From Shewanella psychromarinicola (GTDB lineage Bacteria > Pseudomonadota > Gammaproteobacteria > Enterobacterales > Shewanellaceae): a stretch of 64,000 nt of DNA. Positions 31,877 through 50,992 of the stretch are shown one piece after another. The DNA is taken from positions 3,224,001 through 3,288,000 of the forward strand of contig NZ_CP034073.1 of NCBI RefSeq assembly GCF_003855155.1, written 5' to 3'. Both the position numbers and the translations under genes were made by a program. Under the pieces are notes generated by a model, which was given only the letters and a program-made list of their open reading frames with translations, ran no database searches and was not told the origin of the DNA. Position 1 is the stretch's first letter, and the number at the start of each line of letters is the position of its first letter.

Positions 31877-34057
31877 ATGTTAAATAAGAAAGTATTAGCG
31901 GTAGTGATTTCTGCTGCACTTGGACTAACCGCTTGTAATGGTGATGACGAGATTGTTTACGTTGATAAACCGATAGATAGTGCTATTTCGTCTACGGTTG
32001 CTGAAGGTAAGACGTTATCAAATACACCCGATATCATCGTAAAAAGTGCAATTCAAGATGTTAGTGAAGTGACGATTACCATCGCTGCGACATCCGATTT
32101 ACACGGGCGTCTCTTTGGTTATGACTATGCTATCGATGGTGAAGACAAAGATGCAGGCCTAACACGTATAGCCACTCTACTTAAAGAAGAAAAAGCCAAA
32201 ACCAACAACATGATCTTGATTGATATCGGTGATACCGTTCAAGGTAACTCTGCACAGCTATTCAATGATCATCCAACCCATCCAGTTGTTTCAACACTTA
32301 ACGCCTTAGATTATGATTTATGGGTTCCTGGCAACCACGAATTCAACTTTGAAAGAGAGTTTATTGATCGTAACCTTGCTCACTTCAACGGTGCCGTGGT
32401 ATCAAGCAACATCAAGTGGGAAGAGAGTAGCACTAATTACATCCGCTCTTTTCAAGTATTTGAAGTCGACGGCGCTAAAGTGGCTATTGTAGGTCTAACA
32501 CCTTCAAATATACCCAACTGGGAAGCTTCAGCTCCGGATCACTTCAAAGGTCTAAAGTTTGATGAAGAATTAGCATCAACCCAAGCGGCTGTTGATACAT
32601 TGATAGCAAAGCATCACCCTGATGTTATTGTTGGTGCTTTCCACCTAGGCAGAACTTCTGGTGGCGGCACTGGTGTTTACAAAATTGCTGCTGCTATGGC
32701 AGATCAATTCGATGTTATTATCGCAGGCCACGAGCACGCAACCTATATTGAAAGCATCACTAAAAGTGAGGTTGGGGCCGATATTGTTACTCAAGATATT
32801 TCGGCAGAAGGAAAACACTCAGCGGAAGATAAAACCCTTGCGGGTGTTTATGATGAATCTAATCGCACAAACAGCGTTAAGATTATCGAACCCGGTAAAT
32901 GGGGCTCTGCGTTAGCCAAAGCTGATATCAAACTTAAAAAGAACGCTGCTGGCAAATGGGAGATGGTGGATACCACACTCGCGAATATTTCTACATATAA
33001 TATTGAGCAAGATACCGATATAAGTGCTCAGTATCAATATGTCGATGATATGGCTAAAACTGACGCGCAGGAAGTGATTGGTAAAGTCGTCGGTGTGTTT
33101 ACCCCTGGTGGCGGCGCTGATGAAGCGGTTCATGAAGATATCAACAACGAGGTAGGCAGACTCTATACCACTATCCATACAGCCAAAGTACAAGATACCC
33201 CGCTAATGGATTTCATCAACGCGATTCAGTTACAACAATCAGGCGCTGATATTTCGGCAGCATCGCTATTCTCTGATGGTTCAAACCTTATTGACGGTCA
33301 AGATTACGCTAAGAAAGATTCTACCCGTTTGTACAAGTACGATAACACCTTAATAGGTGTCAATATTACTGGTGAAAATCTAAAACGCTATATGGAATGG
33401 TCATACAGCTATTTCAACCCATACAAGGATGGTGACATTACGGTCTCATTCCGTAAGGGCGCGAAGTCATATAACTATGATCAGTTCGATGGCAAGATTA
33501 ACTTCGTGGTCGATCTCACTGGCGATGTACTCACCATGGACGAGAATTATAAGGTCACCAATGAAGGTAGCCGCATTGATATTTCTGAAATCAATGGTGA
33601 GCCATTTGATCCTAATGCAACTTATAAATTAGCACTTAACAGTTACCGATACGGTTCTCAAGTGAAGAAATATGGTTGGGTGTCTGACACTGGAGAAGAT
33701 AAATTCTACGACTCTGTCAACGAAACTACTTACGCCATTCGTGACATGCTAACTGGATTCGTGCTAACCAATAAGGCGGTTAATGCTGGAGATTACATCA
33801 ACAACAACTGGGAGTTTAAGCAGTACCAAGCCAATGGTGCCATTACACTCGCTCGTACTGATAAAGGCGCTGGTCAAGCACTTTGGACTCAGCTTGTGAA
33901 TAAGGAGATCTGTGTCAAGATTGATCCTGAAAACCCTAAATACCCAGGGATTCTTCACTCAGTAAACTTCAACGATGCTTCTAGCTACTTTGCTAATCCT
34001 AACAAGGATAATGCAGATCAAGATAAAGTATATGAAGGTTGCGTAGAAGCTCCATAA
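31877..34057 (+). CDS. Lipoprotein cyclic-nucleotide phosphodiesterase/5'-nucleotidase
   Basis: About 726 residues, CpdB/UshA superfamily, hydrolysing extracellular nucleotides in the periplasm or at the cell surface. MLNKKVLAVVISAALGLTAC is a lipoprotein signal. The metallophosphoesterase domain shows SDLHG, IGDTVQGN, PGNHEF, FHLGR and GHEHAT, all five metal-site blocks. The C-terminal 5'-nucleotidase domain follows. DLHGRLFGYDY resembles the 2',3'-cyclic phosphodiesterase branch rather than classical UshA. Starts at 31853 and 31871 are also in frame; 31877 fits the signal peptide best. The gene lies just beyond a decayed gene. A second, different member is at 57402. Confidence 0.85.
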   Translation: MLNKKVLAVVISAALGLTACNGDDEIVYVDKPIDSAISSTVAEGKTLSNTPDIIVKSAIQDVSEVTITIAATSDLHGRLFGYDYAIDGEDKDAGLTRIATLLKEEKAKTNNMILIDIGDTVQGNSAQLFNDHPTHPVVSTLNALDYDLWVPGNHEFNFEREFIDRNLAHFNGAVVSSNIKWEESSTNYIRSFQVFEVDGAKVAIVGLTPSNIPNWEASAPDHFKGLKFDEELASTQAAVDTLIAKHHPDVIVGAFHLGRTSGGGTGVYKIAAAMADQFDVIIAGHEHATYIESITKSEVGADIVTQDISAEGKHSAEDKTLAGVYDESNRTNSVKIIEPGKWGSALAKADIKLKKNAAGKWEMVDTTLANISTYNIEQDTDISAQYQYVDDMAKTDAQEVIGKVVGVFTPGGGADEAVHEDINNEVGRLYTTIHTAKVQDTPLMDFINAIQLQQSGADISAASLFSDGSNLIDGQDYAKKDSTRLYKYDNTLIGVNITGENLKRYMEWSYSYFNPYKDGDITVSFRKGAKSYNYDQFDGKINFVVDLTGDVLTMDENYKVTNEGSRIDISEINGEPFDPNATYKLALNSYRYGSQVKKYGWVSDTGEDKFYDSVNETTYAIRDMLTGFVLTNKAVNAGDYINNNWEFKQYQANGAITLARTDKGAGQALWTQLVNKEICVKIDPENPKYPGILHSVNFNDASSYFANPNKDNADQDKVYEGCVEAP

Positions 34058-34072
34058 TCTAAAAATGTCATT

Positions 34073-34100
34073 GATAAAGGCCCTGCAACGGGTCTTTATC
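34073..34100 (+). terminator. Hairpin after the phosphodiesterase gene
   Basis: GATAAAGGCCC and GGGTCTTTATC pair with one mismatch around TGCAAC. There is no T-run beyond the stem, so a weak terminator at best. Confidence 0.45.
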
Positions 34101-34270
34101 CGCTCTAGCTCCAAATAACACTCGCTTCAAAATTTGCAGAAATATATTAACGTTTAGCAATAAGCTTTAAAGAACGCCCTTGTTAACAAAGCCTATTGCT
34201 AAATTTGAATGTAATTGAATTGATATTAACCATACTCACTTTATTGAGGCTTTTTAATGAAAGACTGCCT

Positions 34271-35500
34271 ATGTTAAAAGACTACCGCTTTGCCATCCTA
34301 ATCACCTTCATCTCAACTATGATATTTTATTTTTCCCCCAGCTTGAGTGAAAACTTTAAAGCAAAATCATCATTGCAACAGAGTTTTGTTGAAGCCATAG
34401 TGACCGATGTTGTGAGCAACGAACTAGCACCCGATCTTAGGGTGCCTTCGATATTAACGGGTAAACAAGTCTTTAATGCGGAAATATTAGAAGGTCCAGA
34501 AACCGGTAAGATAGTCGAAATTCAAAATCCTCTTAGCCGCCAACACAACGTGCTGGTTGAGCAAGGTGATGTCTTTATCATGATGATCCGTATTACCGGA
34601 CGAGAGAAAGTCTATTGGGCTTACAACCACAAGCGCTCAACGGCCATCTATTGGATGGGATTTTCCTTTGTACTGCTATTACTCTCCTTTGGTAAGAAAG
34701 AGGGATTTCACTCAATCGTGTCACTTTACTTCACCGCGGCGCTTATTATAGGGGTGCTTATACCCAGCATCTTCGCAGGATTTAATCCGGTGCCTATCAC
34801 CATTATTTTGATGGGTATCAAAATCGTGGTTAATTTTATCTTAGTTTCAGGTTATAACCGCAAAAGTTTTTGCGCTATGGGTGGCACCTTGTTGGGGGTT
34901 ATTGCAGCAGGCATCATGGCGCAAGTCTTCGGGGAATTTGCCCACCTGTCGGGTATATACCTAGATAAAGGTGAGGATGTTATCTATATATCCAATCAAG
35001 TACTGCAGGTGCGCTGGTTAATGTTCGTCGCCATTATGATATCGGCATTAGGTGCGGTTATGGACGTAGCCATCTCCATTGCCTCTGCTTACAACGAGCT
35101 TAGGATTACCGACCCAAAACTCTCACCAACTCAGTTGATGCGGGCTAGTATGAATATTGGTAGAGATATCATGGGCACCATGACGAATACGTTAATCTTG
35201 GCTTTTGCAGGCAGCTCTCTCACCACGATTATGATGGTTTGGGGTTTAGACATGCCTCTGACTCAGTTTATCAATACCCCAGTTATCGCATTGGCAATTA
35301 TCCATGCGCTCGCGGGCAGCGTCGGTATTGTACTGACTATTCCACTTACCGCATGGTTAGCTAGGTATATGCTAAGCCCATCAAGTGTTATGCCAAAAGA
35401 GGCAGTCGCAACAGCCACTGATTCAACTGCAGCCGACGTCATCACTAACGCCATTAATATTGAGCCAACCACGGCACTTAACCCTGCGAATGAAAACTAA
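34271..35500 (+). CDS. YibE/F-like multi-pass membrane protein
   Basis: 409 residues. One N-terminal membrane segment, a roughly 100-residue soluble domain (VSNELAPDLRVPSILTGKQV ... GDVFIMMIRITG), then about seven membrane helices, the plan of the YibE/F family (PF07907). Its function is uncertain; some members have been discussed as transporters. The start at 34271 opens on MLKDYRFAILITF; the frame is open further upstream but without a ribosome site. It follows the phosphodiesterase gene by about 210 bases on the same strand. Confidence 0.8.
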   Translation: MLKDYRFAILITFISTMIFYFSPSLSENFKAKSSLQQSFVEAIVTDVVSNELAPDLRVPSILTGKQVFNAEILEGPETGKIVEIQNPLSRQHNVLVEQGDVFIMMIRITGREKVYWAYNHKRSTAIYWMGFSFVLLLLSFGKKEGFHSIVSLYFTAALIIGVLIPSIFAGFNPVPITIILMGIKIVVNFILVSGYNRKSFCAMGGTLLGVIAAGIMAQVFGEFAHLSGIYLDKGEDVIYISNQVLQVRWLMFVAIMISALGAVMDVAISIASAYNELRITDPKLSPTQLMRASMNIGRDIMGTMTNTLILAFAGSSLTTIMMVWGLDMPLTQFINTPVIALAIIHALAGSVGIVLTIPLTAWLARYMLSPSSVMPKEAVATATDSTAADVITNAINIEPTTALNPANEN

Positions 35501-44235: not shown

Positions 44236-44649
44236 TTAATAAGTGGGTTTAGCGATAATAGTTTGCCCGATAGGGGTTAAACTTAACAAGGCCAACTTAA
44301 TGTGTTGTATCGCAAAGGGGATCCCAATAATGGTGATGAAACAGGCTAATGCATGCACTAAATGACCAATAGCGAGCCAAATCCCAAAACATAAAAACCA
44401 TAGCACATTACCCACTAAGCCTAGTGTGCCAGTACCAATATCTTCTTGGCCAGAAATGTGTTTGCGGTTAACGGTTTCTTGTCCAAATGGCCAAAAAGCT
44501 AATTCGCCAATAACAAAACAGGCTCTGCCAAAAGGGATGCCAATGATACTGATAAAGCACAGTACCCCCACAAGCCACCAAGCAAGGCCCATAACAAATC
44601 CACCCATTAAAAACCAAGCAATATTAAAGATTAAGCGTAAAAGTGACAT
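44236..44649 (-). CDS. yccF: YccF domain inner-membrane protein
   Basis: 137 residues with two internal repeats of the YccF domain (PF03733): WWLVGVLCFISIIGIPFGRACF and HALACFITIIGIPFAIQHIKLA. Four membrane helices. The role is unknown. Start at 44649 (MSLLRLIFNIAWF) has AGGA seven bases upstream; an in-frame start at 44664 is less likely. Slightly shorter than the 148-residue E. coli protein. Confidence 0.88.
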   Translation of the reverse strand: MSLLRLIFNIAWFLMGGFVMGLAWWLVGVLCFISIIGIPFGRACFVIGELAFWPFGQETVNRKHISGQEDIGTGTLGLVGNVLWFLCFGIWLAIGHLVHALACFITIIGIPFAIQHIKLALLSLTPIGQTIIAKPTY

Positions 44650-44798
44650 TTTCATTCCTATCAAGAGTCAATATTAATTACTATATAGCGATAACTAGCG
44701 ATAATCATGCCATTATTATAAGCTTATGATTCTAATTGTTTAAATGTTATTTTCGACATTGAGTGTCTGTTAGGTCTGACAATTAATACAAATGAATC

Positions 44799-44817
44799 GA
44801 TGAGAATTATCATTTTT
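44799..44817 (+). promoter_or_regulatory. Possible Fur box
   Basis: GATGAGAATTATCATTTTT matches 13 of 19 positions of the canonical Fur box as remembered (three GATAAT-type hexamers). It lies 40 bases before the ACC-deaminase-like gene. Weak on its own. Confidence 0.3.
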
Positions 44818-44856
44818 TAGTTAAAATACCCATATTACAGTTGATTGAGAGAAGAC

Positions 44857-45837
44857 ATGTTTTCGATAAGCCCAGTAGAGTCGATGAACTTTGACGGCCA
44901 CACCCTCTACATTAAGCGGGATGATTTATTGCATGCTGATTTCAGTGGCAATAAAGCACGTAAGTTTTATCATTTTTTGCATCATGATTATTCATATGTG
45001 ACCCGCCTAGTAGGGGCCGGTTCTGCACAAGCTAACTCTTTGTATTCATTATCTGTGCTGGCTAAGCAGCAGGGCTGGCAATTTGACTATTACGTTAGCC
45101 ATATTAGCAAATTTTTACTACAACACCCCCAAGGCAATTACGCTGCCGCGATACAAAATGGGGCTAATATTATTAATGTTGCTGAGTTGCCATATGCCGA
45201 TAACATAGCCGGCATGCATTTAGATGATGTTGTGCAATACATTATGTTATCAACTCCGACTTACGCCGATAAACAACATCTACTGTGTATTCCTGAAGGT
45301 GGGCGCTGTGAATACGCAGAAACGGGTATTGCGCAGCTTGCGAGTGAAATTATTGAGTGGGCTCAGATTAGACAACAAATTAAGCTCATGGTTTTTTTAC
45401 CTTCTGGTACCGGCACCACAGCAGCTTATTTAAATAAGCAACTAATACAACAGCTCGCTCAATTGCAATTAACACCAGTACTTACCATTGAGGTATTAAC
45501 CTGCAGCACGGTTGGCGGTGATGATTACTTACGCCAGCAATTTTCACAATTAATTGATGAAGTTTATTATCCTCACATTGTTAGTGATGGGCATAAATAT
45601 CATTTTGGAAAATTATCGCAACGTTGTTTTGATATGTGGCAAACCGTATGTCAGTCTGGAATTGAATTTGAGTTGTTGTATGACCCTGTCGGATTTTTAG
45701 TCTTACAACATTATTTGAAGACTAATACGTTGACTAATACTGATATTTTATATGTACATCAAGGTGGGATATTAGGAAATAAAACGATGTTGCCAAGGTA
45801 TCTACGAAAGTTTTCAAATTCGATTAACGCTTCATGA
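44857..45837 (+). CDS. PLP-dependent ACC deaminase/D-cysteine desulfhydrase-like protein
   Basis: 326-residue fold-type II PLP enzyme. IKRDDLLHADFSGNKARKF contains the PLP lysine K33 in the GNKxRK signature of the 1-aminocyclopropane-1-carboxylate deaminase/D-cysteine desulfhydrase family. AGSAQANSL is a variant of the substrate-binding loop, and LPSGTGTTA binds the PLP phosphate. The sequence is diverged, so the substrate is open. ATG at 44857 follows GAGAGAAG. Single gene. Confidence 0.8.
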   Translation: MFSISPVESMNFDGHTLYIKRDDLLHADFSGNKARKFYHFLHHDYSYVTRLVGAGSAQANSLYSLSVLAKQQGWQFDYYVSHISKFLLQHPQGNYAAAIQNGANIINVAELPYADNIAGMHLDDVVQYIMLSTPTYADKQHLLCIPEGGRCEYAETGIAQLASEIIEWAQIRQQIKLMVFLPSGTGTTAAYLNKQLIQQLAQLQLTPVLTIEVLTCSTVGGDDYLRQQFSQLIDEVYYPHIVSDGHKYHFGKLSQRCFDMWQTVCQSGIEFELLYDPVGFLVLQHYLKTNTLTNTDILYVHQGGILGNKTMLPRYLRKFSNSINAS

Positions 45838-46092
45838 CAACGAAAACGTAGTCACGCTCTAATTTTCGTCAGATTTACGACGATTAAGAAAATTAACTCA
45901 TTGATAAAATGGGTTTTGTGTGAGTTTCGTTAGGTTTTTTGTTCTTATTCGACTGAGGTTTGAACTGGAGTAGTCGTAAAGTAGTAATTCATTTTGCTCT
46001 GTTTTAATAAACATCGGTAATTGAGAGGAGAATACCGAGAAATGAGTTTATTAAATACCAGAGCAAATGATTAACGCTTAGCGTTAGGGATA
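45838..46092. other. Gene-free interval with inverted repeats
   Basis: Lies between the convergent ACC-deaminase-like gene and the 57-residue gene. It contains the large inverted repeat at 45989-46070 and a second pair, TTTACGAC near 45880 and GTCGTAAA near 45973. Confidence 0.55.
45989..46070. repeat. 82-base long inverted repeat downstream of the 57-residue gene
   Basis: Three nested arm pairs: TCATTTTGCTCTG with CAGAGCAAATGA (one extra T), TTTAATAAAC (46003-46012) with GTTTATTAAA (46046-46055), and CGGTA with TACCG. The transcript of either strand would fold into one long stem. AACGC-TTA-GCGTT follows at 46074-46086. Confidence 0.75.
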
Positions 46093-46266
46093 TTACTTAT
46101 TTGCAGAGATTAACCATTTCATGAAGTTCATTGCTTCAATGCGCTTTGAAAAGGTCTTTTTGTTTTTACCTAAGCTGTCGGTAAAAGCAATTGAGTTTTT
46201 GTTTGACGAAATAGAATTAACCGGGAAGCTAACTGAGATTTCGTGTCCATTCATGTTGTATGACAT
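46093..46266 (-). CDS. Small hypothetical protein, 57 residues
   Basis: Begins MSYNMNGHEISVSFPVNSIS and ends MNFMKWLISANK. An excellent ribosome site, AAGGAG with eight to nine bases to the ATG, decides the strand; the open frame on the opposite strand has none. Rich in Ser, Asn and Lys, with a beta-like front half and a helical KTFSKRIEAMNFMKWL tail, no signal peptide and no cysteines. I do not recognise the family. A small hairpin, TCACC/GGTGA, sits at 46290-46303 in the leader, a larger one at 46396-46479, and a long inverted repeat follows the stop. It appears to be a separate transcription unit. Confidence 0.75.
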   Translation of the reverse strand: MSYNMNGHEISVSFPVNSISSNKNSIAFTDSLGKNKKTFSKRIEAMNFMKWLISANK

Positions 46267-47158
46267 TGGTCACACTCCTTTTTATATATTCACCATTAGG
46301 TGAGACAATTGTTCAATAAAATATCCTTGGCATTTTTTAGTGTTGCGAAAGATTAATGTTTCGAGATTTAACTTACCCTATCTTTTACTCACTAATCAAG
46401 TGTTGTTATGTCAATAGTTGATTAAGGTCTACTTTGTGTCAGCAACATTGATGTTGTGACATAACCTTAAGGCACTTGATACAAATGGCACTTAATTTTG
46501 TAAGTTGAACATAGTTTTATGACAGCAAGATTACGTGGATAGAAATTATCGTATCAACATAGATCAATTGAAAATCAAAAACGATGAACATAAGCTTGTC
46601 TTGGGTTTATTTACGAAGTGAAGTTGAGCAGACTTACAGGTAGGTAACCAAAATTAACAAGAAAACTAAATCTACATGGATAATATACTGAGTGTTTGCA
46701 TATGGCAATAGTCTTTTTCAAATTTTAATCAAATTAAAGCTCATTTCGATTAAAAAATAAGCAATGGGGCCAGCTGTGCGGTTGTTTATACTTAAAATAG
46801 CCTGTGATGCGGACATTTTGTAAAAATAGATGATGAGCATGCTCATCACTTATGCTCTACCTAACGGTGTTAACAACGTAAGCCCAGCTATGCACTAATC
46901 ATGTCTAAACCACCCTAGCTTAACTTTGTTTACTGAAACAAATTAAGCTAAGGAACTTCAAAACGGAATAATAAACGTTTATTAAACCGCACCTATAACT
47001 CTAGATGCGTAGCATTGGCCCAGAACTTCAGCAATTGATGATTCAATATACCTTGCTAGCAAAACAAAGGCTAAGTTCACTGTTAATAACCTGAAGATAG
47101 ACTGAATTTATCCGTTTATCACATTTGATATTACGATTTTAAATTAATAAACCAATGA
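46267..47158. other. Gene-poor, structure-rich region
   Basis: Nearly 900 bases without a convincing gene. Perfect or near-perfect symmetries: 46290-46303 hairpin; 46396-46479 nested stem; 46831-46848 18-bp palindrome TGATGAGCATGCTCATCA; 46916-46950 15-bp stem TAGCTTAA/TTAAGCTA plus TTTGTTT/AAACAAA; 46969-46984 palindrome TAATAAACGTTTATTA. These could be operators, the leader of the small gene, or an unannotated RNA. Confidence 0.6.
46396..46479. repeat. Nested inverted repeat upstream of the 57-residue gene
   Basis: TCAAGTG (46396-46402) pairs with CACTTGA (46473-46479), and GTTATGTCA (46405-46413) pairs perfectly with TGACATAAC (46457-46465). An inner CAACATTGATGTTG forms a further hairpin. 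It is 130 bases upstream of the minus-strand small gene. Confidence 0.7.
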
Positions 47159-47845
47159 TTAATAAAGTAAATCGCCAATTGGATTTAATAACTTACTTAT
47201 GCCTTTAGTAAAATATAAAGGGGCATCAACAATGGTATAACACAAACAGCCTTCAAGTGTTTTAGGAGAATGTTGATGTTCTTTGTCGAGCAACATAAAA
47301 TCACCAGGTTTATAAGTGTTGTAACAGTCGCTGAACTCTCCTGCGAGTAGTAAGGTCAGTTCTGCACCTTTATGAGTATGCTCAGGGATCTCACCATTAG
47401 CAGCTATGTGTAACAAGCTTGCTCTTGCTTGCGGCTCACCGGTATCGAGTCGTAAACGACTGACTTTGCCAATACCTTGCCAAGAAGCGTTAATTTTTTT
47501 ACGAAAAACTCTTGGCAGTGGGTAATGATGACCTTTAATGCTGACACTGTTATCTTCAATGCTATTGTCGGTATTAGGTTGCGCAGCTTCTAAGGTATCT
47601 AAGGTTGAATTCAAGAACTGGGCAAGCAATGCATCTAGCTGATTATTATCAGTGCTATCAACCGATTGAGGTGCCGCAGTTGTATTAAATTGCTGGTCAG
47701 ACAAGGTAATCGTCATTTGATCGAGTTGCTGTTGGCAATGTTGGCAAAATTCGGCGTGAGCAGAGATTGCCATCGACATAGACAGTGGAAGTTCGCCTTT
47801 AGCATGGAGAGACAGTAAATGCGGGTCTGGGTGGTAATTAATCAT
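47159..47845 (-). CDS. chrR: ChrR family anti-sigma factor
   Basis: 228 residues, two domains. The N-terminal zinc anti-sigma domain carries H30-x3-C34-x2-C37 (HAEFCQHC). The C-terminal cupin domain has H156, H158, E162 and H192, spaced exactly as the metal ligands I recall for Rhodobacter ChrR (141, 143, 147, 177). It holds the ECF sigma factor inactive until a signal, singlet oxygen in Rhodobacter, acts on the cupin domain. Start overlaps the sigma gene stop by eight bases. Confidence 0.92.
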   Translation of the reverse strand: MINYHPDPHLLSLHAKGELPLSMSMAISAHAEFCQHCQQQLDQMTITLSDQQFNTTAAPQSVDSTDNNQLDALLAQFLNSTLDTLEAAQPNTDNSIEDNSVSIKGHHYPLPRVFRKKINASWQGIGKVSRLRLDTGEPQARASLLHIAANGEIPEHTHKGAELTLLLAGEFSDCYNTYKPGDFMLLDKEHQHSPKTLEGCLCYTIVDAPLYFTKGISKLLNPIGDLLY

Positions 47846-48500
47846 AGTGTTTCTCCATAAAACTTTTTAATTTTTCCAATCCTAGTCGAAGCCGAGATTT
47901 AACGGTGCCGATTGGAATATTAAGTTTATCTGCTAACTCTTGCTGAGTAAGCTCTTGCATATAGATGCCTTGGACTACTTGACGCTGCAGAGGAGGTAAC
48001 TCTTTCACGTGCTGTAATAATGTTGCCGATAACAAAAAATCTTCATCATTATGTTCAGCGTCATCGGACTCAAATAAAGGCCAAATATCATCACCGAATG
48101 AATCTTCACGGTTATGTTGTACTTTACGAAGCATATCAAAACATTGATTGCGCATAATGGTAAACACCCAAGTACTTACCGCTGCTTTATCAACGTTGTA
48201 TAGATGAGCTTTGGTCCACACTCGAGTCATGGTTTCTTGTACTAAGTCCATGGCTAAGCCTTGTGTGCTTAAACGTTGAACCCCAAAAGAATTAATTTTT
48301 GGGGAAAAATGTGAAAAAAGCTTAGCAAAAGAGGTTTTGCATCGATTGTTAGCTACTTTCATCATTAATGCAGCGAGTTCATCTGCTATTGGATTGGGTT
48401 CGTCTGTTTTCATAGCACCATTTCGATTAATTAAGGGTCTTTGTACAAGAGACCTCTTATCATAACCAATTTGTACGCTTTGTGATTGAACATTTTCCAT
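47838..48500 (-). CDS. rpoE: ECF sigma factor (RpoE-like, ChrR-controlled)
   Basis: About 220 residues. Region 2 (LVQETMTRVWTKAHLYN ... STWVFTIMRNQCFDMLRK) and region 4 (LPPLQRQVVQGIYMQELTQQELADKLN, then GTVKSRLRLGLEKL) are intact, with no region 1.1 or 3, the ECF plan. ATG at 48500 has GAGTGA upstream; 48515 and 48413 are alternatives. Overlap with chrR implies stoichiometric production. A promoter-like site at 48600-48627 shared with two neighbouring genes suggests autoregulation. The 5' untranslated region would be about 95 bases. Confidence 0.92.
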   Translation of the reverse strand: MENVQSQSVQIGYDKRSLVQRPLINRNGAMKTDEPNPIADELAALMMKVANNRCKTSFAKLFSHFSPKINSFGVQRLSTQGLAMDLVQETMTRVWTKAHLYNVDKAAVSTWVFTIMRNQCFDMLRKVQHNREDSFGDDIWPLFESDDAEHNDEDFLLSATLLQHVKELPPLQRQVVQGIYMQELTQQELADKLNIPIGTVKSRLRLGLEKLKSFMEKHYD

Positions 48501-48599
48501 TATTTTCACTCGCATCCAATAAATAAGTCATTAAGCTTAAGCATTTACTTTATCTATGCCTTAGCTCGTTCAAACTGAACAAAACATAATTCACAAATT

Positions 48600-48627
48600 T
48601 ATACGCTGCGTAGTAGAGTTCAGATCA
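48600..48627 (-). promoter_or_regulatory. Predicted ECF sigma promoter of the sigma/chrR operon
   Basis: Minus strand TGATCT, 16-base spacer, CGTATA. The GATC -35 core and CGTA -10 core are what I recall for ChrR-controlled (ECF11-type) sigma factors. The same arrangement recurs at 49269-49296 and 49904-49931. Confidence 0.65.
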
Positions 48628-48637
48628 CTCGTTGAGA

Positions 48638-49228
48638 TTATTTTATAATATCGAGTAAGAATGATTTAGCTAATCTATGGTCATGACTATTAATACACTG
48701 ATATTTTTCTTTTGAACTCAGAGGGATAATTTCAAGCCAACGTTGACATACCCAAGCGATATCATTAAATTTTTCTTCCGAATAATGAGCAAGATGCTGA
48801 GGATATTCCTGCAAAATCTGCTTCAAAGTACTGCTGAGCAGCTTATCTTTTTTACGATCTATCTGATGAATGTGTGGTTGTGCATTTTGTTGTTCAATAA
48901 TATCGCTCGGCCAAGAATCAATTAAGCTCACATCTGCTCGCTTTAAACCGTCATCATCAACGCTGATTTGGTTAATTGTAAATGTTTTTTGCCCTTGAAT
49001 ACTGATACCCAGTAAGCCGTCTTCAAGCATTTCGAAGTCGATTATCTTGGTCAATGTACCGATAGGTAAGATGGATTTGTTATCATCAGCCAACATGCAT
49101 AAGCCAAAACCTAAACCACTTTTAAGGGATTCGGAGACTAAGCGTTTATATCTCGGTTCAAAAATGCGCAATTGGGTATACCCCTGCGGTAATAAGCAAA
49201 TAGTTAATGGGAAAATAGGGATTATCAT
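48638..49228 (-). CDS. LON substrate-binding domain protein
   Basis: 196 residues made only of the N-terminal domain of Lon protease (IIPIFPLTICLLPQGYTQLRIFEPRYKRLV...), with no AAA or protease part. Such stand-alone proteins are common but of unknown role, perhaps substrate adaptors. Start at 49228 follows a strong GGAGG five bases upstream; the in-frame ATG at 49240 contains that ribosome site and is unlikely. A predicted ECF promoter lies about 40 bases upstream. It ends ten bases before the sigma promoter. Confidence 0.88.
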   Translation of the reverse strand: MIIPIFPLTICLLPQGYTQLRIFEPRYKRLVSESLKSGLGFGLCMLADDNKSILPIGTLTKIIDFEMLEDGLLGISIQGQKTFTINQISVDDDGLKRADVSLIDSWPSDIIEQQNAQPHIHQIDRKKDKLLSSTLKQILQEYPQHLAHYSEEKFNDIAWVCQRWLEIIPLSSKEKYQCINSHDHRLAKSFLLDIIK

Positions 49229-49268
49229 AGCTGCCTCCATATGAAACTTAGTCGGTAATTTGATCTGT

Positions 49269-49296
49269 CATACGCTTCTATATGGGTTAACGATCA
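49269..49296 (-). promoter_or_regulatory. Predicted ECF sigma promoter of the LON-domain gene
   Basis: Minus strand TGATCG, 16-base spacer, CGTATG, about 40 bases before the ATG at 49228. It overlaps the last codons of the former lipocalin frame. Confidence 0.6.
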
Positions 49297-49847
49297 TCTT
49301 TCTCTGGGGTATGATCAACCCAAATCAAATTATTGGGATCAATCGTTAAAGCGGATAACTTCATCATAAAGCGTTGTTTAATAATGGCATCAATGCTGGG
49401 TGTTCTTGATAAAATCCACGCATACTTGTCATTAGGGCCAATGACGAGGGCATCTGTGTAACGACCATTTTGGGCTTAAACGATGTCGTGGATTTGGTAT
49501 GCACCATAGAATGGTCCGAAAAAAGAGACTTTTAGCAATCCTTGATTAGCGCCATTAATGAAATATGCTTTGCCTGTTGCCTGATCCCAGCGTTGCTTAT
49601 CTTGTTTATATCCTCGATTAATAACCACAAGCTTGTCACCTTGCGGGTTATACTGCGCGGTCACATTTGACATGTTGCGCTCAAATGAGTGATCAAGGCG
49701 GGCAATTTCATACCAAGTTCCTATGTATTGCTCAATTTCAAAAGGTTTGACGACATCAACTGGTTTGTCAATCAGTGTACATGCTGATAAACCCAGTAAA
49801 GAAATACTGATGCTAAAAGTGCTTATTATTTTGGAAAATAATGTCAT
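49287..49847 (-). pseudogene. blc: Lipocalin Blc gene interrupted by one nonsense codon
   Basis: Outer-membrane lipoprotein of the bacterial lipocalin family, thought to bind lipids under envelope stress. Lipoprotein signal MTLFSKIISTFSISISLLGLSAC, then lipocalin motif IGTWYEIARLDHSFE and VSFFGPFYGAYQI. At 49476-49478 a TAA interrupts the frame after HDIV. Beyond it the same frame continues AQNGRYTDALVIGPNDKYAW, ILSRTPSI and LIWVDHTPEKDDR, exactly the expected C-terminus, to a stop at 49287. The 187-codon frame has no indel, so a single base change is enough. The 123-residue product would lack the last beta strands. A recent mutation, a sequencing error or readthrough are all possible. Confidence 0.85.
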
Positions 49848-49903
49848 GTTGAAGCCTTAACTGAATGGTTAATACAATGGGAATTTATTGACCCAGAAAA
49901 TAG

Positions 49904-49931
49904 AGTACGTATTGAGGTTGGTTATTGATCT
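49904..49931 (-). promoter_or_regulatory. Predicted ECF sigma promoter of the lipocalin gene
   Basis: Minus strand AGATCA, 16-base spacer, CGTACT, about 57 bases before the lipocalin ATG. The outer -35 bases differ from the other two sites, so it is the weakest of the three. Confidence 0.5.
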
Positions 49932-50050
49932 TGTTTAATAAATTTTTTTCATTTTCGGTCACATAAATCTAGGTCTAACAACGATTATTGGTATTTTTTA
50001 AGTATAATTATTATTAATATTTGAAGTTGTATATTAGGTGGAAGTCGTTC

Positions 50051-50992
50051 ATGAAAAAAGTGCTTGATACGGTTGATCAACGAACTAAGTTAGTGGGCGA
50101 AAATCGTTTAGAATTATTGTTATTTCGCATTAGTTCAAGTCAATTATTTGCTATTAATGTATTTAAAGTCAAAGAGGTAGTTAACTTACCTCCGTTAAAT
50201 ACCGTACCTGGTAGCAATCCTAATATTTATGGTGTGGCTAACATCAGAGGGATCTCGATCCCGGTGATTAATTTACGTGAAGCGATTGGTTTTTCACCCA
50301 TGCCGGTAACCGAAGATAGCAAATTGATTATTACTGAATATAACCGCAGTGTGCAGGGCTTTTTAGTGGGTAATGTCGAGAACATTATTAATATGACGTG
50401 GAGTGATATTATGCCGCCACCCAAAACCGCTGGCGGAGATAACTACTTAACGGCGATAACAAGAATTGAAGATCAAGGGCAAGTGCGTTTGGTGTCTATT
50501 ATTGATGTTGAAAAAGTGTTGGCTGAGATCATCGATTACGATGTGAAATTAACCGATGGGGTGCTCGACGAAGCGTTAGCGACGCAAATGCTTGGCCGTA
50601 AGGTATTAATCGTTGATGACTCATCTACTGCACGTAAGCAAGTAAGAGATACATTAAGTCAGCTAGGCCTTGAGATTGTTGAGGCGTCAGATGGACTTCA
50701 AGCGTTGCAATTACTGCAATCGTGGGCGGATGAAGGTCGTGATGTTGCAAATGAATTATTAATGATGATTACCGATGCAGAAATGCCTGAAATGGATGGT
50801 TATAAGTTGACCTTCGAAGTTCGTAATGATCCCAGAATGACATCGTTATTTATTACACTCAATACTTCTCTTAGTGGTAGTTTTAATCAAGCTATGGTGG
50901 AAAAAGTCGGCTGTAATGAATTTATCTCTAAATTTCAACCCGATTTATTAGTGCGCGTGGTCCAAGATCGTTTGCGCACTCTTATTGGCTAA
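50051..50992 (+). CDS. cheV: Chemotaxis coupling/receiver protein CheV
   Basis: 313 residues: a CheW-like domain (about 15-165, with FKVKEVVNLPPLN and GVANIRGISIPVINL) fused to a receiver domain (about 183-313). Acidic pocket D189/D190, phospho-acceptor D242 in MITDAEMPEMDG, T272 and K294 are all present. CheV links receptors to CheA and tunes adaptation. No other chemotaxis gene is nearby, so it is an orphan. ATG at 50051 is preferred over an upstream TTG at 50021. Confidence 0.93.
   Translation: MKKVLDTVDQRTKLVGENRLELLLFRISSSQLFAINVFKVKEVVNLPPLNTVPGSNPNIYGVANIRGISIPVINLREAIGFSPMPVTEDSKLIITEYNRSVQGFLVGNVENIINMTWSDIMPPPKTAGGDNYLTAITRIEDQGQVRLVSIIDVEKVLAEIIDYDVKLTDGVLDEALATQMLGRKVLIVDDSSTARKQVRDTLSQLGLEIVEASDGLQALQLLQSWADEGRDVANELLMMITDAEMPEMDGYKLTFEVRNDPRMTSLFITLNTSLSGSFNQAMVEKVGCNEFISKFQPDLLVRVVQDRLRTLIG

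Follow-up and report, generated by a model that had tools for sequence, protein, structure and literature searches.

Conserved TGATC/CGTA promoter-like sites at a predicted RpoE2-ChrR locus of Shewanella psychromarinicola

Background

The closest described system is the RpoE2-ChrR pair of Shewanella oneidensis (SO_1986-SO_1985), for which Dai et al. 2015 gave the boxes TGATCC-N16-CGTATT before rpoE2 and TGATCA-N16-CGTAAT before SO_1987, with the rpoE2 start placed by primer extension downstream of the box equivalent to the one described below (PMC4336711). Upon induction of rpoE2, chrR and SO_1987 rose in semi-quantitative RT-PCR, and in the passages of that paper used here the SO_1987 promoter is documented by this induction, with no mapped start given (PMC4336711). 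The ybgA-photolyase operon is another published target, the S. oneidensis cfa operon starting at ybgA, and rpoE2-chrR and its targets were found to be jointly missing in several deep-sea or cold-adapted strains (PMC4336711).

The founder of the ECF11 group is the sigma-E-ChrR pair of Rhodobacter sphaeroides, whose ChrR, likewise the founder of its family, is a cytoplasmic zinc anti-sigma factor tied to singlet oxygen (PMC6852236). The proteases that degrade ChrR are listed among the open questions in a review of that system (PMC6852236), and homologues of DegS and RseP are involved (PMC3818230, PMC7074977). Promoters of the same RpoE/ChrR kind have been published for Pseudomonas syringae, where the phrB box aGATCC starts with A and is active, 14-fold by qRT-PCR (PMC5507510), and for Vibrio cholerae (PMC5241685). 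In Stenotrophomonas maltophilia a lipocalin-family gene was 165-fold up in a chrR mutant and not in a chrR rpoEc mutant (PMC11832516). The latter was the one paper in the openly licensed literature that combined a lipocalin, ChrR and a sigma factor, and among the matches listed in that literature only Dai et al. 2015 tied a LON domain to ChrR or rpoE2.

Results and Discussion

Gene content of the locus

The window, that is the whole stretch of 64,000 nucleotides analysed here, covers positions 3,224,001-3,288,000 of the single-contig 5.13-Mb genome of S. psychromarinicola and contains a minus-strand cluster transcribed in the order lipocalin frame, LON N-domain gene, ECF sigma gene and chrR (Table 1). 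A preliminary description of this DNA had named the sigma/ChrR pair from the letters of the sequence, and our searches with Pfam, TIGR02451 and solved relatives agreed that the two genes encode an ECF sigma factor and an anti-sigma factor of the ChrR family. The best match of the sigma protein among solved structures was R. sphaeroides RpoE (2q1z_A; E 5.4e-32, residues 46-220), the next-best being SigW (E 5.5e-12), and its nearest named relatives among the best 80 of 125 named loci came from Shewanella species; the true start of the gene may lie further in than listed. Overlapping the end of the sigma gene by 8 nt, chrR encodes a protein that matched the solved ChrR chains 2z2s_B (E 1.6e-16) and 2q1z_B (E 4.2e-14) as well as PF12973 (Cupin_7), and that carries the sequence His30-x3-Cys34-x2-Cys37. 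Its alignment to 2z2s_B extends over both domains, the N-terminal part being weak on its own. By homology, then, the locus is predicted to encode an ECF sigma factor that most resembles R. sphaeroides RpoE, together with a ChrR made up of a putative zinc anti-sigma domain (H...HxxxCxxC) and a cupin-like domain, as is characteristic of ECF11 sigma-ChrR pairs.

Table 1. Genes and promoter-like boxes of the cluster, with positions counted from the first letter of the window
Feature	Position	Strand	Details
chrR, zinc-type anti-sigma gene	47159..47845	-	TIGR02451 193.6 bits (cut-off 124.5)
ECF sigma gene (predicted RpoE2/ECF11 type)	47838..48515	-	225 codons as listed; Pfam PF04542 and PF04545
ECF11-type promoter-like box, sigma gene	48600..48627	-	TGATCT-N16-CGTATA; GATC-N17-CGTA match 48602-48626
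Stand-alone LON N-domain gene	48638..49240	-	200 aa; PF02190 E 2.3e-17
ECF11-type promoter-like box, LON gene	49269..49296	-	TGATCG-N16-CGTATG; GATC-N17-CGTA match 49271-49295
Blc-type lipocalin, broken frame	49476..49847	-	123 codons; PF08212 profile positions 2-91 of 146
ECF11-type promoter-like box, lipocalin gene	49904..49931	-	AGATCA-N16-CGTACT; GATC-N17-CGTA match 49906-49930
cheV	50021-50992		divergent from the minus-strand cluster, on the other side of the lipocalin

The S. oneidensis locus shares with this one the sigma/ChrR overlap, a LON gene behind its own box and autoregulation (PMC4336711). The R. sphaeroides founder resembles it in the pairing of a sigma factor with a zinc anti-sigma factor that has a cupin-like C-terminus and in its cfa-type core targets, within what is there a singlet-oxygen response, but a LON-domain gene, unlike here, is unnamed in the passages of the source drawn on (PMC6852236). 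RSP_1090/91 stand directly upstream of rpoE-chrR in that organism, whereas the cfa cluster lies about 1 Mb away from rpoE2-chrR in the present genome (PMC7074977).

The LON-domain protein has PF02190 as its sole Pfam match, with no AAA+ or protease domain, and its solved relatives are 7cay and 1zbo; translation may actually begin a few codons further in. We rejected its identity as a Lon protease, since this 200-aa protein has neither of these domains behind the N-domain and would be misnamed as a 'Lon domain protease'. Many genomes of the genus, including ones that lack the sigma gene, encode another stand-alone LON-domain protein, a paralogue that aligns mostly over residues 14-200 at about 30-37% identity. 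On the other side of the cluster, downstream of chrR, about 1.3 kb (45838-47158) contain no open reading frame of at least 80 aa, and an Rfam scan of 44500-50300 returned no family at threshold.

Promoter-like boxes and their conservation

The preliminary description had reported three minus-strand sites with GATC and CGTA cores and an identical 16-base spacer, each within about 100 bases of a start codon, and a pattern scan of the window recovered them as described, with CGTA ending 86, 30, and 58 bases ahead of the listed start codons of the sigma, LON, and lipocalin genes, respectively. Its statement that ChrR-controlled sigma factors use promoters of this type was borne out by the literature, the boxes matching the published RpoE/ChrR promoter of S. 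oneidensis (PMC4336711), P. syringae (PMC5507510), and V. cholerae (PMC5241685). The box before the lipocalin gene departs from the consensus at the first base of its -35 element (A, not T). At the sixth position of the -35 element the sigma, LON, and lipocalin boxes have T, G, and A, respectively, while C stands there in four and A in one of the five boxes listed for S. oneidensis (PMC4336711).

Judged by number, the sites are unimpressive. The 64-kb window holds exactly three matches to GATC-N17-CGTA, all on the minus strand, with 0.89 expected, and at least three such sites were also obtained in 6 of 100 shuffles of the window. A scan of the whole genome, which the preliminary description had proposed as a check, gave no enrichment of the bare motif (78 sites vs 86 for a reversed-pattern control); the longer form TGATC-N17-CGTA did exceed its control, with 27 sites vs 16. 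The bare motif is thus weak evidence, its count alone not being beyond chance, and because such counts failed to part signal from chance we relied on conservation instead.

For this purpose we compared the best 80 of 125 named loci, comprising 43 from Shewanella (L088-L130) and 37 from Motilimonas, Aeromonadaceae (Aeromonas, Tolumonas), Aliivibrio, Psychromonas, and Idiomarinaceae, and counted as a box only an exact GATC-N16/17/18-CGTA; in the other genera, distances were measured from the start of the match, and boxes reaching up to that start were included. Within these best 80 of 125 loci, the box was present before the sigma gene in 41 of the 43 Shewanella loci, before the LON gene in 38 of the 39 that have it, and before a local lipocalin in 17 of the 18 that have one, 14 of these 17 lipocalin boxes starting with A. 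Outside Shewanella, again among the best 80 of 125, 33/37 loci had the box before the sigma gene and 24/30 before the LON gene, all six misses for the latter being Tolumonas loci. The Shewanella misses for the sigma gene (L099, L100) and the LON gene (L097) have the close variant TGAACC-N16-CGTA upstream, and the best upstream candidate at the one lipocalin miss (L128) differs by at least two mismatches. The published box TGATCA-N16-CGTAAT of SO_1987 recurs letter for letter before the LON gene in L108 and L112.

The boxes are also concentrated where promoters would be expected. Across the 43 Shewanella loci, 92 sites of the N17 form fell within 30,450 nt of promoter windows, as against a single one on the same strand in the remaining 505,503 nt (3.0/kb vs 0.002/kb) and three on the opposite strand. 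The motif is therefore conserved before orthologues and not equally frequent outside promoters, two points on which the preliminary description had staked its reading. Placement and conservation of the boxes are far beyond chance, and the TGATC-N16/17-CGTA element before the sigma gene is a predicted promoter of the kind that belongs to ECF11 sigma-ChrR systems. A box with the same -35 GATC also occurs in organisms that are not known to have Dam, and for this reason a role of Dam methylation at that GATC was set aside.

Boxes elsewhere in the genome

The regulon had been proposed to be a local one, which it does not appear to be, as the same box, with a start codon a short way downstream, stands before conserved genes elsewhere in the genome, namely an operon of SnoaL, SDR, flavin oxidoreductase, DUF1365, and cfa genes (box at 2,222,297), a glutathione peroxidase gene followed by a ferrochelatase gene (2,434,350), folX-folE (197,665; folX 197274-197672; L033, L269), and an ADH-like oxidoreductase gene (34,594; gene 33431-34507; L031, L329). 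The first two match the cfa and pgpD-hemH2 targets of S. oneidensis, whereas the five boxes listed for that species include neither folX-folE nor the oxidoreductase (PMC4336711). A Rhodobacter RpoE target is FolE2, another type of GTP cyclohydrolase (PMC7074977).

Orthologues of folX, the oxidoreductase, and a peroxiredoxin gene with a box (L035) were collected from 60 of 129 genomes, up to 30 loci for each; from these we dropped four of 30 for folX, which at 58-59% identity were treated as paralogues, and 18 of 30 for the oxidoreductase, which were below 46% identity. Among the matches listed, the folX box was found in 17 of 24 orthologues from genomes with the sigma gene, the other seven lacking an exact box, and in 0/2 without it; for the oxidoreductase the figures were 8/10 (in two of the eight the spacer is shortened by one base) and 0/2. 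Based on these sequence comparisons, folX-folE is a likely RpoE2 target that would link pterin synthesis to the response, and folX-folE and the oxidoreductase can be added as supported targets. The peroxiredoxin gene was rejected, the box being present at that place in 0/29 other orthologue loci among the matches listed. This failure indicates that some of the 27 TGATC sites of the genome are due to chance, and it also demonstrates that the conservation test is able to give a negative answer. Further sites include a MerR-type one (L034) and one inside the cfa operon (L042). No exact box was found upstream of the ybgA-photolyase genes (2216738-2219156) or of the two other photolyase-type genes of this genome.

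Co-occurrence with the sigma gene

The sigma gene is present in 96 of 129 genomes of the genus, and a LON gene of the local type (E <=1e-44) occurs in 69 of these 96 vs one of the 33 without it; the 69 are a lower bound, with a weaker LON match adjoining the sigma gene in, for example, G044 and G009. In the exceptional genome (G002), the 500 bp preceding the LON gene are free of the box, and the 10 kb around that gene contain neither a sigma nor a chrR match. Likewise, three genomes with a lipocalin beside cheV and no sigma gene (G127, G030, G025) have the box in 0/3 cases, and in G119, where the sigma gene is on another contig, the lipocalin box is kept. When the LON (38/39), lipocalin (17/18), folX (17/24), and oxidoreductase (8/10) orthologues were pooled, the box was found in 80 of 91 with the sigma gene in the genome vs 0/8 without it (LON 0/1, lipocalin 0/3, folX 0/2, oxidoreductase 0/2), a difference with a Fisher p of 4e-7 that must be read with the reservation that related genomes are not independent and eight is few.

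On this evidence we consider it very likely that the three conserved TGATC/CGTA promoter-like sites are read by RpoE2, which ChrR would hold until stress sets in. By analogy with the described systems, ChrR would keep RpoE2 inactive until singlet-oxygen or peroxide stress removes it, and the freed RpoE2 would transcribe its own gene together with chrR, giving positive autoregulation and then re-capture, as well as the stand-alone LON gene and the truncated lipocalin gene. Its distant targets would be the cfa operon, the glutathione peroxidase/ferrochelatase genes, folX-folE, and the oxidoreductase gene. As to the type of stress, the preliminary description had left a choice between singlet oxygen and the cell envelope; what is published for the cytoplasmic R. 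sphaeroides ChrR (PMC6852236) upholds the former and not the latter, and control by a ChrR-type protein points to singlet-oxygen or peroxide stress rather than envelope stress. We infer box use in this strain, the inducing signal, transcriptional read-through, and any role of the LON-domain protein.

The lipocalin gene and its box

The third box leads into a lipocalin frame that is truncated here and not intact as had been assumed. The listed frame stops at 49476 because codon 123 is followed by an in-frame TAA, past which the frame is open again to about 49285, and the lipocalins of relatives read on where the TAA stands; the stop could conceivably be a sequencing error at one position. A full Blc lipocalin barrel from an intact frame was rejected, given the stop after residue 123 and the partial Pfam match, and with the truncated protein as query no second lipocalin was found in the genome at E 1e-8. 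Among near relatives, the lipocalin of G051 is broken by several stops and lacks the box, and remnants of 26 residues, next to a retained box (L196), and of 28 residues are left in G089 and G013, respectively, while the lipocalin match is absent in G070 and G031 and the frame is shifted in L091. Open lipocalin frames of 185-201 codons were found in G121, G122, G006, G079, G060, and G045, and the frame is also open in S. ulleungensis (L088). Since the gene is broken here and decayed or unseen in several near relatives, the lipocalin seems, by sequence, to be dispensable in this clade. No lipocalin was found at the locus in L104, L108, L111, L112, and L114, which we take to be of the S. oneidensis kind. 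The S. oneidensis paper has no occurrence of the word lipocalin in its main text (PMC4336711).

The lipocalin promoter may accordingly be a relic, as the first -35 base deviates and the gene is broken here. That this site is non-functional, or belongs to another ECF sigma factor, so that only the sigma and LON promoters are those of RpoE2, is a reading that we regard as unlikely but worth weighing. The retention of the box in G089 is in keeping with it, in that a box can outlast its gene, and so are boxes of TGAAC type found before distant lipocalins in two of six genomes without the sigma gene, which may be left over from a recent loss or may serve another sigma factor. On the other hand, the box is kept at nearly all Shewanella loci with a local lipocalin and is missing from the three sigma-less genomes with a lipocalin beside cheV, the active phrB promoter of P. 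syringae tolerates an A at the corresponding position (PMC5507510), and the S. maltophilia lipocalin-family gene depends on RpoEc (PMC11832516). That gene is likewise under RpoE/ChrR control, although it lies beside cfaS1 in the smlt2375-2367 cluster, whereas the lipocalin here has its own box and stands beside the LON gene (PMC11832516). We regard the lipocalin as a former or partial RpoE2 target. In genomes with the sigma gene, distant lipocalins were preceded by TGA[AT]C-N17-CGTA in 19 of 43 cases (17 TGAAC, 2 TGATC), and the TGAAC boxes may be read by RpoE2 as a variant of its own box or by another ECF sigma factor.

Very improbably, the boxes serve housekeeping sigma-70 or a sigma-E of the E. 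coli type. Sigma-70-like sites are present in the region, but at the level of shuffled sequence (12 vs 11.3), the sigma-E elements given for S. oneidensis, GAACTT with TCCAAA or TCTACA, are unlike TGATC/CGTA (PMC4336711), and the box is absent from the eight target orthologues examined in sigma-less genomes. Least credible of all, to the point of being negligible, is that pairs of GATC and CGTA with a fixed spacing are simply common and the three matches coincidental, as the shuffles and the reversed-pattern control would permit, but which runs against the boxes being kept before each orthologue in dozens of species and nearly nowhere else in the loci, and against the published start site at the equivalent S. 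oneidensis rpoE2 box (PMC4336711).

Gene arrangement and read-through

If RpoE2 reads the boxes, their arrangement would bear on its own expression. The LON gene lies upstream of the sigma gene on the same strand in 40/40 Shewanella loci, the window included, and in 30/30 others having both. Of the 38 Shewanella loci measured, 25 have a sigma -35 element that overlaps the LON stop or is at most 16 nt from it, and in the other 13 the distance is 58-378 nt; the LON -35 element overlaps the lipocalin stop or is no more than 13 nt away in 13 of 17 loci. In the window, the sigma -35 begins 10 nt past the LON stop codon and the LON -35 sits at the 3' end of the lipocalin frame; all three boxes are co-directional, and the two downstream ones abut the end of the preceding gene. 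A search of the window for terminator-like sites gave none between the genes and only a single one otherwise, at 49646-49625 inside the lipocalin frame, no more than in shuffled sequence (1 vs 1.9). From the shared direction, the boxes at gene ends, and the lack of a terminator-like site between genes, it is probable that transcripts from all three promoters run into rpoE2-chrR, which would strengthen feedback. A class I methyltransferase-like gene (MKLN...EIGCGFG, by eye) adjoins the lipocalin or LON gene in L126, L128, L130, and L263-L266, loci that belong to species outside the clade of the window.

The LON link is not new, SO_1987 being a published RpoE2 target already (PMC4336711). The central claim, RpoE2 promoters before rpoE2 and the LON gene, is thus known and mostly published, and the new detail is that the boxes are co-directional and often packed at gene ends, so that all three could feed rpoE2-chrR.

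Conclusions

By sequence, the published RpoE2-ChrR promoter logic extends to most of the compared loci of the genus and to neighbouring families. The oddity of the system is the stand-alone LON N-domain gene, which co-occurs with the sigma gene, head-to-tail and behind its own box. In Lon itself the LON N-domain binds substrates, and the coupling of the gene to rpoE2 makes an adaptor role worth suggesting. We therefore offer as a speculation, and an improbable one, that this protein, expressed from an RpoE2 promoter of its own immediately upstream of rpoE2-chrR and transcribed into it, is a substrate adaptor which helps to deliver ChrR, or spent RpoE2, to a protease as a feedback part of the ECF11 switch; if true, it would supply a missing step in how ChrR is turned over in Shewanella, Aeromonas, and related bacteria. 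For the regulon as a whole, a box that is kept together with the sigma gene and missing in the few sigma-less orthologues examined provides a footprint by which the true targets of RpoE2 can be listed.
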